The notes beneath the pieces were generated by a model. It saw only the letters and a list, made by a program, of their open reading frames with translations. It was not told the origin of the DNA and did not search any database. Of a DNA stretch of 64,000 bases, positions 29,992 to 61,317 are shown piece by piece. The stretch's first letter is position 1, and each line of letters begins with the position of its first letter. A program made the translations under genes and the position numbers. This DNA comes from Agathobaculum sp. NTUH-O15-33 (lineage in GTDB: Bacteria; Bacillota; Clostridia; Oscillospirales; Butyricicoccaceae), in contig NZ_CP136187.1 of NCBI RefSeq assembly GCF_033193315.1, positions 186,001-250,000 on the forward strand, in the 5' to 3' direction.

Positions 29992-30034
29992 TTGCATTTA
30001 TAGCCTATCCGGTGCTATGTTGATTGAGCGGCGT
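29992..30034 (+). promoter_or_regulatory. Candidate promoter/operator of the tyrosine recombinase
   Basis: The inverted repeat ATGCAA-ACTGG-TTGCAT overlaps a possible minus-35 (TTGCAT), with TATGTT 18 bases on. It could be an operator or a recombinase binding site. Confidence 0.35.
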
Positions 30035-30077
30035 ATTGTGCTGGCCGACAATAGAGATGCATCGGAGGAATAAAATC

Positions 30078-30947
30078 ATGTTAACGGAACAGATCGAAGC
30101 ATACCTTGAGAAATTGGCGGCGGCGGAACGAAGCGCCGCGACGCTCTCCAAATACCGGCGCGACCTGCGCAGCTTTGCGGCGTTCATGGGAGAACGGCAG
30201 CTGGACAAAACGGCGGTCGTCGCCTATAAGGAAACACTGACCGCGAGATACGCGGCCTCCAGCGTCAATTCCATGCTGGCGGCGGTAAACGGCCTGCTGG
30301 CGTTTATGGAGCGGCACGACTGCCGCGTGCGGCCGCTCAAGACGCAGCGCAAAGCGTTTTTACCGCCCGACCGCGAGTTGACGCGAAAGGATTATCTGCG
30401 CCTGCTGTATGTTGCATCGGGCCGCCGGAACAGTAGGGTATACCTGCTGCTGCAAACGCTCGGAGCGACCGGCATCCGCATATCCGAACTGTGCTACATC
30501 ACCGTGGAAGCGGCGCGCGCTGGGCGCGCCTCCGTTAGGCTCAAGGGCAAAACGCGCGTGGTATTCCTGCCCCGCAGCTTGTGCAGCGCGCTGCTGCGCT
30601 ATGCGGAGAGCAAGCACTTAACGGGCGGCCCGGTGTTTATCACCCGGTACGGCCTGCCGATGGATCGCTCGAATATTTGGAACACGATGAAGCGCCTGTG
30701 CCGTTCGGCGGGCGTCGACCCGCATAAGGTGTTTCCGCACAACCTGCGTCACCTGTTTGCCCGCACCTATTACGATACGGATCGCGATTTGGCGCATTTG
30801 GCCGACTTGCTCGGCCATAGCTCGGTCGATACCACCCGTATCTACACCGCGACTAGCGGCGAGGAACAGGAAAAACGCGTCAACGCGCTCGGTCTGGTGA
30901 TAGAAAGGCGGGAACTGGAAAACCGAGAAAGGGAAATAGAACATTAA
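30078..30947 (+). CDS. Tyrosine-type site-specific recombinase (XerC/D-like)
   Basis: A 289-residue integrase. The ATG at 30078 has GGAGGA nine bases upstream. The N-terminal SAM-like core-binding domain (IEAYLEKLAAAERSAATLSK) is followed by the catalytic domain. Catalytic Arg is in LGATGIRISELCY, a Lys in RLKGKTRVVFLP, His and Arg in HNLRHLFARTYYD, His in LLGHSSVDTTRIYT and the nucleophilic Tyr in the same block. It stands alone, with no phage or transposon genes nearby, immediately before the structured repeat at 30951. Its substrate site is unknown. Confidence 0.9.
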   Translation: MLTEQIEAYLEKLAAAERSAATLSKYRRDLRSFAAFMGERQLDKTAVVAYKETLTARYAASSVNSMLAAVNGLLAFMERHDCRVRPLKTQRKAFLPPDRELTRKDYLRLLYVASGRRNSRVYLLLQTLGATGIRISELCYITVEAARAGRASVRLKGKTRVVFLPRSLCSALLRYAESKHLTGGPVFITRYGLPMDRSNIWNTMKRLCRSAGVDPHKVFPHNLRHLFARTYYDTDRDLAHLADLLGHSSVDTTRIYTATSGEEQEKRVNALGLVIERRELENREREIEH

Positions 30948-30950
30948 AAC

Positions 30951-31215
30951 AAACGGCGCGCCGAAGCGCGCCGTTCCAGCTTGTCAAAGAACCTCCACGC
31001 GCCGCAGCGCGCATATAATAGGATTTTGCCGAAAAAGCAAAATCCATAAAATCCGGGAGCATGTATCTCGGATTTTATACAAACCGACTTCAAGTGTGCC
31101 TAAAAGGCGCGCGCAGAAGCCGGAATACTCGATCGAAATGGGGCTTTGTTTCGATCGACAGACTGTCAAAATAGTTTTTTGACAGTCTGAAACGGCGCGC
31201 CGAAGCGCGCCGTTC
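30951..31215. repeat. Structured intergenic element, copy 1, bracketed by duplicated terminator hairpins
   Basis: An identical 26-base palindrome (AACGGCGCGC-CGAA loop and complement) lies at 30951-30976 and again at 31190-31215. Between them are five hairpins in order: CGCGC at 30998; GGATTTTGC/GCAAAATCC at 31021-31045; ATAAAATCCG/CGGATTTTAT at 31046-31078 with an apical GGGAGCATGTATCTC; TCGATCGAAA/TTTCGATCGA at 31129-31158; and AGACTGTCAAAA/TTTTGACAGTCT at 31160-31188. The same order recurs at 61004-61289. It separates two convergent genes. No supported coding frame was found. Confidence 0.85.
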
Positions 31216-31230: not shown

Positions 31231-32010
31231 TTATTCGCTTAAAAGCATGCGGTCGTTCTCGATATTGAACTTTTCCAGCAGATCGCGTACGGAAAGATTT
31301 TTCTTTTCCTCGCCCGCGATGTCCACGACGACCCGGCCGGCGTCCATCATGATCAGGCGGTTGCCGTACTGGATGGCGTTTTTCATGTTATGCGTGACCA
31401 TTAAGGTGGTGAGCTGGTCGCGCGCGACGATCTCGTCGGTTAGCTGCAAAACCTTGTCGGCGGTCTTAGGGTCGAGCGCGGCGGTATGTTCGTCCAGCAG
31501 CAGCAGGTCGGGCTTTTGCAGCGTCGCCATCAGCAGGGTCAGCGCTTGCCGCTGGCCGCCAGAGAGCAGACCGACCTTGCTGGTCAAGCGGTCCTCCAGA
31601 CCGAGACCCAGCGTGGCTAGTTTTTCACGGTATATTTCGCGCTCGGCGTTTGAAATGCCGCTGCCCAGACCGCGGCGTTTGCCGCGCCGGTAGGCGAGCG
31701 CCAGATTTTCTTCGATGCCCATGGTGGCCGCCGTGCCCATCATGGGGTCCTGAAACACACGGCCCAAATGGCGCGCGCGCTTGTGCTCGGGCAGGCCGGT
31801 GAGATTAAACCCGTTTAGGCGGATCAGTCCTTGATCGACCGGGAACACGCCCGCGATCAGGTTCAGTATGGTGGACTTGCCCGCGCCGTTGCCGCCGATC
31901 ACCGTGACAAAATCACCGGGCTGGAGCGTCAGGTTCAGGCCGTCGATCGCCTTCTTTTCATTGATTGTACCTGCGTTAAAGGTTTTATGAATATTTTGCA
32001 GCTCAAGCAT
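31231..32010 (-). CDS. ABC transporter ATP-binding protein (TrpZ-type importer)
   Basis: A protein of about 259 residues from the ATG at 32010 (MLELQNIHKTF), which has a GGGGG-type site and overlaps the permease stop by eight bases; the frame extends 21 codons further without support. Walker A is GGNGAGKST, the signature LLSGGQRQAL and Walker B LLLLDEHTAALDP. The unusual Glu-His after Walker B is typical of this subfamily. It powers the permease encoded upstream. The gene ends 16 bases from the duplicated terminator of the structured element. Confidence 0.9.
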   Translation of the reverse strand: MLELQNIHKTFNAGTINEKKAIDGLNLTLQPGDFVTVIGGNGAGKSTILNLIAGVFPVDQGLIRLNGFNLTGLPEHKRARHLGRVFQDPMMGTAATMGIEENLALAYRRGKRRGLGSGISNAEREIYREKLATLGLGLEDRLTSKVGLLSGGQRQALTLLMATLQKPDLLLLDEHTAALDPKTADKVLQLTDEIVARDQLTTLMVTHNMKNAIQYGNRLIMMDAGRVVVDIAGEEKKNLSVRDLLEKFNIENDRMLLSE

Positions 32011-32917
32011 CGGTCTTGTCCCCCTTCTTTGCGGCCTTGCTGAAATATTTGCCCTTCCAGTAAGGGATAGCAAGGAATATCGCGACGACCAGCGCGGACA
32101 ACAACTTCAAATCATCCGCGTTTAGGCCCAGCCACAGAACGATTTGAATGACCAGATAGTATATGATGGCGCCGAAAACGACACTGAGCAGTTTGAGCGC
32201 AAAGTTGCGAAATATTCTGCCGAATATGACATCGCCGATGATAACGGCGGCTAGTCCGATCACGATCGCGCCCGTGCCCATTTTAACATCGGCAAAGCCC
32301 GAGTACTGCGCAAGCAAAGAACCTGCAAGCGCAACCAGACCGTTGGAGACCATCAGGCCAAATACCTTGTTGTGGTTAACGTTAATGCCCTGTGCGCGGC
32401 TCATGTTGGGATTGGCGCCTGTGGCGCGGATCGAACAGCCAAGCGCCGTGCCGAAGAACCAATAAAGCAGCGCGATGATCACAACGACGAACACGGTTAC
32501 CACTAAAATAGACTGGGTGATGTAGCGGAGCGACACGATCAGCGGATATTTATCAACGCTGATTGCCTTGTTTGCAGCCCCTAGGATCCGCAAATTAATC
32601 GAGTAAAGCGAAAGCTGGGTCAATATGCCGGCAAGAAGCGCGGGAATACCCATAAACGTGTGCAAAAGACCGGTGATACAGCCGGCGATCAGGCCGGCCA
32701 AAAATGCACCGAGCATAGCCGCCCACACGGGAAAGCCCGCGAACATAAGCATAATGCAGGTTGCGCCGCCTGTGGTGATCGAGCCGTCCACGGTCAGGTC
32801 GGCCACATCGAGCACCTTGTACGTAATGAATACGCCGATAGCCATGATGCCCCAGATCAGGCCCTGAGCAACCGCGCCCGGCAGTGCATTGAGCAGGTTG
32901 AGAACATTCACTTTCAT
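32003..32917 (-). CDS. ABC transporter permease (TrpY-type)
   Basis: A 304-residue protein with about eight transmembrane helices. LIWGIMAIGVFITYKVLDVA and DLTVDGSITTGGATC near the N-terminus, and GLMVSNGLVALAGSL later, are typical of the permeases paired with ABC_sub_bind (PF04392) lipoproteins. Members are thought to import amino acids such as tryptophan or tyrosine, but specificity is not established here. It is separated from the binding-protein gene by a strong hairpin. Confidence 0.88.
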   Translation of the reverse strand: MKVNVLNLLNALPGAVAQGLIWGIMAIGVFITYKVLDVADLTVDGSITTGGATCIMLMFAGFPVWAAMLGAFLAGLIAGCITGLLHTFMGIPALLAGILTQLSLYSINLRILGAANKAISVDKYPLIVSLRYITQSILVVTVFVVVIIALLYWFFGTALGCSIRATGANPNMSRAQGINVNHNKVFGLMVSNGLVALAGSLLAQYSGFADVKMGTGAIVIGLAAVIIGDVIFGRIFRNFALKLLSVVFGAIIYYLVIQIVLWLGLNADDLKLLSALVVAIFLAIPYWKGKYFSKAAKKGDKTDA

Positions 32918-58296: not shown

Positions 58297-58436
58297 TAAA
58301 AAATAAAAATACCCTCCCGGTGCAAAGACACAGGGAGGGTACACAGATAACATGATGATGCAGTTCCGTGTTGACCTCGGCGGGCGGCGTAATCGCCTTT
58401 TAAGCCTTGCGGCTGCCAGCTGTCTCTGACCAAGCT
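58297..58436 (-). ncRNA. Ribosomal L10 leader with attenuator
   Basis: The region upstream of rplJ on the minus strand holds AGACAGCTGGCAGCCGC and later GCCGAGGTCAAC, which fit the L10-L7/L12 autoregulatory leader. It ends in the terminator stem ACCCTCCC (58311-58318 with 58333-58340) and a T-rich tail. Excess L10 would bind here and lower expression. Confidence 0.78.
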
Positions 58437-58441
58437 CTTAT

Positions 58442-58470
58442 ATTATATAGAGTGGGGACGCGTTTGTCAA
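58442..58470 (-). promoter_or_regulatory. rplJ-rplL promoter
   Basis: On the minus strand a perfect TTGACA (58465-58470) and perfect TATAAT (58442-58447) with a 17-base spacer. Confidence 0.92.
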
Positions 58471-61003: not shown

Positions 61004-61289
61004 AAAAGACCACGCTGCAAATGCATTTGCAGCGTGGTCTAAGCGTGTCAAAGAACTTCCGCGCCGTAGCGCGCAATAAAATTGAAAATTGAAGCAAAGC
61101 TTCAATTTGACCAAAAACCGGGAGCATGTATCTCGGTTTTTGAACAAACCGGCGGCGAAGTGTGCCCAAAGGGCGCGCGCCAGAGCCGGAATTCTCGATC
61201 GAAATGGGGCTTTGTTTCGATCGATAGACTGTCAAAAATTATTTTTTGACAGTCTAAAAGACCACGCTGCAAATGCATTTGCAGCGTGG
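61004..61289. repeat. Structured intergenic element, copy 2, bracketed by duplicated terminator hairpins
   Basis: An identical 34-base terminator palindrome (CCACGCTGCAAATG..., unlike that at locus 1) lies at 61004-61037 and 61256-61289. Between them are the same hairpins in the same order as at 30951-31215: GCGC box; AAATTGAAGC/GCTTCAATTT at 61086-61108; CAAAAACCG/CGGTTTTTG at 61112-61142 around the shared GGAGCATGTATCTC; the TCGATCGAAA stem; and the AGACTGTCAAAA stem. It separates convergent agrC and rplA. Confidence 0.85.
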
Positions 61290-61317
61290 CCTTTGTTATT
61301 CCTTTGGCGGAAAACGA

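Follow-up and report, generated by a model that had tools for sequence, protein, structure and literature searches.

Group IIC introns insert beside terminator hairpins. Members of the IS1182 family have direct repeats of 2-60 bp according to ISFinder (PMC7335449), and some of them target palindromes, as attributed to Siguier and colleagues in two later papers (PMC4923244, PMC5678879); palindrome targeting by IS1182 elements is already in print in that form. IS1272/TnSha1 of staphylococci, which belongs to the IS1182 family, is described as entering hairpins, several of which are terminators, with little sequence preference, and its insertion as removing the hairpin partly or wholly (PMC4923244). 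The BOX, RUP and SPRITE elements of pneumococcus are reported to be short, to be present in many copies and to have strong predicted secondary structure (PMC3049150).

The locus examined here lies in a 64,000-nucleotide stretch of the chromosome of Agathobaculum sp. NTUH-O15-33, the whole of which is referred to hereafter as the window. The palindrome AAACGGCGCGCCGAAGCGCGCCGTTC was found exactly at positions 30951-30976 (left copy, paired in the predicted fold) and 31190-31215 (right copy), forming an exact 26-bp repeat whose two copies are separated by 213 bases. As the original prediction had described, the insert sits between a tyrosine recombinase gene on its left (30024-30947, + strand; PF00589) and a convergent ABC ATPase gene on its right (31231-32073, - strand; PF00005), both of which are bystanders. 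The insert itself (30977-31189, + strand) opens with the left terminal inverted repeat CAGCTTGTCAAAG (30977-30989, + strand), an end motif common to the IS1182-family elements L329, L341 and L342, and closes with the right terminal inverted repeat (31176-31189, + strand), which is within a terminal hairpin. Open reading frames of at least 50 aa overlapping the 213-bp core encode 60 aa and 61 aa, and there is no transposase gene. The second copy in the window (L033; 61041-61255, + strand) is 81% identical to the first and is bracketed, also as predicted, by a different, locus-specific palindrome, a 37-bp hairpin (61004-61040 on the left, identified by flank comparison, and 61256-61292 on the right) whose two copies are identical at 36 of 37 positions. 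Unlike group IIC introns, the element has inverted-repeat ends and a target duplication, and Rfam gave no group II intron match in the window. The only Rfam family detected there was an ordinary ribosomal protein L10 leader (RF00557) at 58297-58447 (- strand), away from the element.

The element is short, is present in many copies, has terminal inverted repeats, target-site duplications and ends shared with an insertion sequence, and carries no transposase gene, all features of a MITE. It is very probably a non-autonomous MITE with IS1182-family ends, which a transposase acting in trans would insert at the feet of a terminator with duplication of the whole hairpin. In the mechanism that we propose, the transposase would join both 3' ends of the element to the outer feet of the palindromic terminator, which would probably be extruded as a cruciform during joining, and gap filling would then produce one complete terminator hairpin on each side.

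A search of the 4.0-Mb, single-contig genome with the 213-bp core yielded 67 matches that resolve into 40 loci. The copy number is at least 40, with 40 of the 125 first-look candidates scored, one locus each, and shorter and diverged copies present beyond these. Well-bounded copies measure about 212-267 bp. Locus-specific flanking duplicates, which the original prediction asked for at other copies, were present at most of them: the left and right flanks were alike (local alignment score of at least 30) in 34 of the 40 copies, while mispaired flanks (left of one copy, right of another) reached that score in 7 of 1560 comparisons. The matching of the flanks is not due to chance. Each locus has its own duplicated hairpin, in many cases preceded by A and followed by T. 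The end pattern CAGnnTGTCrAA gave 48 + 79 matches in this genome compared to 7 + 6 for the reversed control, some places being counted twice through the optional base, and an exact-pattern scan found 55 stretches, from Agathobaculum/Butyricicoccus, one Eubacteriales MAG and Intestinibacillus. Plasmid and phage collections contained no DNA match to the MITE.

Six copies were without matching flanks. The left side of L040 is the right flank of one copy in G004, a genome of the same species, and its right side is the left flank of another; these two G004 copies are approximately 10 kb apart on one contig. Recombination between copies could account for such an arrangement, although the element does not have the orientation that a simple deletion would give. 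The right hairpin of L019 is truncated, L007 has unlike hairpins on its two sides and L038 has no hairpin. The flanks of L034 are unlike and L028 could not be bounded, but these two copies are longer and the left boundary used in the flank comparison fell inside the element, which made the comparison unfair to both. Two further kinds of structure were also seen. At three loci (L094, L091 and L096), two end repeats face each other to form a bare hairpin, 32-54 bp long, with unlike flanking sequences; these may be the smallest remnants of the element or products of it. A palindrome like GTATAATAGCCGCAAAACGGCTATTATAC occurs in clusters with a spacing of about 100 bp near positions 1934353, 2540503, 3071423 and 3382939 of the genome; it is an unrelated repeat.

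If the flanking hairpins arise by duplication, orthologous loci without the insert should have a single hairpin. Thirteen predicted empty sites were used as queries in G004, and six of them (L002, L004, L006, L010, L011 and L033, the last being the second window copy) were empty, with one hairpin, no insert and small base differences. An empty site could also stem from later precise loss, and the empty state has one hairpin either way. The first window copy (L001) is represented in G004 by an internally deleted remnant between two hairpins. Of the others, L026 was occupied at contig ends, L036 held a rearranged element, L030 was broken by a contig end carrying IS1182 sequence, and the sites of L005, L008 and L092 were not found in G004. 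These six sites, together with the 34 matching flank pairs, support the original proposal that the element is mobile and non-coding, inserts into terminator hairpins and duplicates its target.

Occupied loci were also compared between the two genomes, using 41 loci from the genome of the window and 33 from G004 (from 47 G004 matches, L063 and L105 being one place). Eleven of the 41 were paired, a lower bound given that L026, unpaired in this comparison, proved to be occupied at G004 contig ends, and 30 were unpaired; of the paired loci, L034 was matched on 45 bp only and L040 pairs with two different copies. Near-identical copies were found at unshared sites (L001, L002, L041 and L063), suggesting recent movement of the MITE, although searches for an IS1182-type transposase in this genome found none, which counts against the proposed mechanism. 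Two features of the G004 assembly deserve mention. L121 and L122 occupy mirror positions with the same flanks on contig C27 (39302 bp), so that this contig resembles a self-inverted duplication and may be an artefact of assembly. At L204 (1969-3640), the CATG loop of a MITE copy is split by another element, whose 458-aa ORF, judged by eye, looks like an IS3-type transposase. The resulting 1,672-bp unit between MITE ends had been considered as an autonomous partner and was rejected, being a MITE interrupted by another element.

The duplications follow the stem from foot to foot. Their length was about 21-44 bp, a range that excludes rows that were misparsed or ran on into the element (L025, L032, L108, L111, L116 and L129), with a median of 32 for 66 duplications, not all of which are independent, as they include orthologous pairs of the two genomes and the mirror places L121/L122 of one contig. 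Both outer bases were at most 1 nt from the predicted stem foot in 51 of the 66. Whereas direct repeats of the IS1182 family are known to vary in length, here the length of the repeat is that of the target hairpin. On B-form DNA, a transposase dimer of fixed shape would be expected to cut with a constant stagger; a stagger that tracks stem length suggests that the cut points would be brought together by extrusion of the palindrome. The right copy was closer to the reverse complement of the left copy in 3 of the 66 pairs (L036, L092 and L133), which amounts to inversion of the loop. The loop also differs between occupied L010 and its empty site, so loop inversion may be background. Loops inverted with the stems kept were noted in duplicated or orthologous hairpins at L030, L036, L092, L128 and L133, and in L010 compared to L150.

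A candidate partner was found elsewhere in the bacterial family. The IS1182 model (NCBIfam NF033551, curated cut-off 270 bits) had a match in 27 of the 87 genomes of the family, 4 over the cut-off and none in the genome of the window. L329, from another genus (genome G045), is a complete element of 1,571 bp with a 488-aa transposase that scores 403.5 bits against the cut-off of 270 and contains the domains DUF772 and DDE_Tnp_1_6. It begins CAGTCTGTCGAAAAAGTCC, finishes CTCGACAGGCTG and stands between two exact copies of a 30-bp hairpin. The same ends are carried by a complete insertion sequence with a transposase above the cut-off and by the window element, which has no transposase. The MITE ends are shared with L329 as a full element and with L341 and L342 in part. 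One MITE-like end beside a hairpin is present in each of L341, L087, L339 and L344, which are 83-89% identical to L329 where they overlap it. At the edge of contig 9 in G004 lies a C-terminal IS1182 fragment that shares 61% identity with L329 across 99 aa. Next to it come the MITE end, GTTCTTTGACAGTCTG (TTTGACAGTCTG), and then a terminator hairpin, the same hairpin that is occupied by MITE copy L030 in the genome of the window. Three IS1182 elements read in the genus (L069, L070 and L083) belong to other subclades and differ in their ends, and the end of L340 (53% identity) is not accompanied by a hairpin. From the shared ends and target behavior, it is the L329-type transposase clade that would move the MITE in trans.

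We considered whether a different hairpin-recognizing enzyme, for example a Y1-type transposase acting on single strands or a route through RNA, moves the element, the IS1182 ends being a matter of coincidence or ancestry. Such an enzyme would fit the conserved fold on the + strand as well as the searches of the genome itself, which gave no match to PF13751, PF05598, PF01609, the IS1634 model or the IS1182 model. No IS-sized pair of MITE ends was present at 3.11-3.91 Mb of the genome, with end-pattern matches listed to about 3.12 Mb, none of four inspected hairpin pairs at least 1.5 kb apart (from 2.0 Mb) had MITE ends, and a viral scan with the transposase found no relative. However, the first 19 bases of an older MITE copy, L104, are identical to the start of L329, and complete IS1182 elements behave alike at their targets. 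The ends are, moreover, inverted repeats with a target duplication, a combination that single-strand Y1 transposition does not, to our knowledge, produce. We regard a different enzyme as improbable and favor the IS1182-type transposase.

The interior of the MITE is, by its alignment, a covarying multi-hairpin structure. In the first window copy (all + strand), an internal hairpin at 31021-31045 (helix 2, found by repeat search; 6 of 9 pairs changed on both sides) is followed by a second at 31046-31078 (helix 3, with an invariant G-U pair; 8 of 12 pairs changed on both sides) and by a two-part hairpin at 31084-31123 (helices 4 and 5, from alignment and covariation). Repeat search and covariation likewise define the hairpin TCGATCGAAA..TTTCGATCGA at 31129-31158 (helix 6) and the terminal hairpin at 31159-31189, which is formed by two facing end repeats. 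The alignment (A1), in which this copy is one row, comprises 61 elements; a length and end filter had let through 63, of which L047 and L052 were left out. Across 57 pairs, 99.0% of cells were paired. Changes on both sides occurred in 26 pairs (shuffled mean 13.8; slid controls 1-6) and in 193 cells (shuffled mean 36.9); since the rows are related, these comparisons are not probabilities. Three wobble pairs were G-U in every one of the 61 sequences. One of these pairs lies within a helix in which its neighbors were swapped, an indication that selection acts on the + strand, either as RNA or as a single strand. In all, 215 GU were counted against 15 AC, a count biased by the way in which the structure was predicted, and 183 of the 215 come from the three invariant pairs. 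No Rfam family reached its gathering score on the element, which had sub-threshold matches only.

The excess of doubly changed cells and the three wobble pairs kept throughout are also what a cellular structured RNA gene might show, if a terminator were invariably part of it at either end, so that the hairpins belonged to a regulatory unit and were not the product of insertion. Yet the hairpin sequences are locus-specific, orthologous sites have one hairpin and no insert, and IS1182 elements carry the same ends. Nor did the 40 copies show a bias in orientation to genes (tandem pairs 10 and 9, convergent 15, divergent 6), with noisy gene calls taken as the longest ORFs. An origin as an RNA gene is thus very unlikely. 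Stem-loop replacement as for IS1272, in which the target hairpin is removed on insertion and the visible hairpins come from elsewhere, involves the same transposase family and kind of target (PMC4923244, PMC5678879), but where IS1272 is described as losing its hairpin the MITE has two when the site is occupied and one when it is empty, which refutes replacement for the copies with empty sites and makes it scarcely credible overall.

Insertion of the MITE by an IS1182-type transposase has a predicted consequence for termination. T-tracts (at least 5 T in the 9 bases after the hairpin) were scored at 33 loci with locatable hairpins. They followed the outer hairpin copies in 24 of 33 cases on the + strand and 27 of 33 on the - strand, compared to 8 of 33 and 1 of 33, respectively, for the inner copies. 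As the near hairpin is mostly without a T-tract and the far one mostly with, termination is predicted to shift to the far copy: whichever side a transcript comes from, it should read past the near hairpin more readily, run through the element and stop at the far copy. The original prediction had offered, as its other option, an RNA element with a terminator retained at each end. This may hold in part, as a consequence of insertion, in that the outer T-tracts mostly survive, while the origin as a structured RNA gene is disfavored by the empty sites. A bolder reading, which we consider possible but rather doubtful, is that a structured RNA has here become transposable and shifts the point at which transcription ends. 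It would enter between stem foot and T-tract, duplicate the terminator and strip the near copy of its T-tract on both strands while the far copy keeps one; it would thereby be copied into the 3' end of host transcripts arriving from both directions, with termination of the host gene preserved. Its interior would be selected as RNA, a view based on the compensatory changes and the fixed wobble pairs.

Duplication of whole hairpins is not confined to this element. An IS1182 element of Sutcliffiella (L361, 45% identity), which begins CAGCTTGTAGACAAAG, has an exact 30-bp hairpin duplication, and its ends resemble those of a second MITE family that was found by an end-blind scan. This second structured family, 225-226 bp long with ends CAGACTGTAGACAAAG and CTTTGTCGACACGCTG, lies between duplicated hairpins in the genome of the window at 2097375, 2790415, 3162161, 3473642 and 3498372; L097 is related. 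There were 7 matches in 2.0 Mb plus the window, 5 of them with hairpin duplications. A Subdoligranulum copy covering part of the gene (L360) has a hairpin beside its left end, and the T. melissae element L359 (66%) has different hairpins on its two sides. No hairpin duplication was seen at three distant alphaproteobacterial IS1182 elements (0 of 3; 24.6-27.2% identity).

Among the titles and abstract openings searched, with ISFinder entries and most subscription papers outside that scope, no title reports a terminator-duplicating IS1182 MITE, nor did that literature yield a case of whole terminators being duplicated with empty sites to match. The MITE is like BOX, RUP and SPRITE in being short, structured and present in many copies; SPRITE is described as resembling a terminator, whereas the MITE enters and duplicates terminators of the host. 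The copies show the stem-loop-duplicating outcome, which the IS1272 paper drew only as a possibility, and hairpin duplication could explain why direct repeats in the IS1182 family have the odd range of 2-60 bp. Together with their empty sites, the many copies make up a natural data set on how a DDE transposase family chooses targets by structure, for which MITE and insertion sequence are now named as a candidate pair. Our results suggest how a transposon can sit cheaply at the ends of genes.
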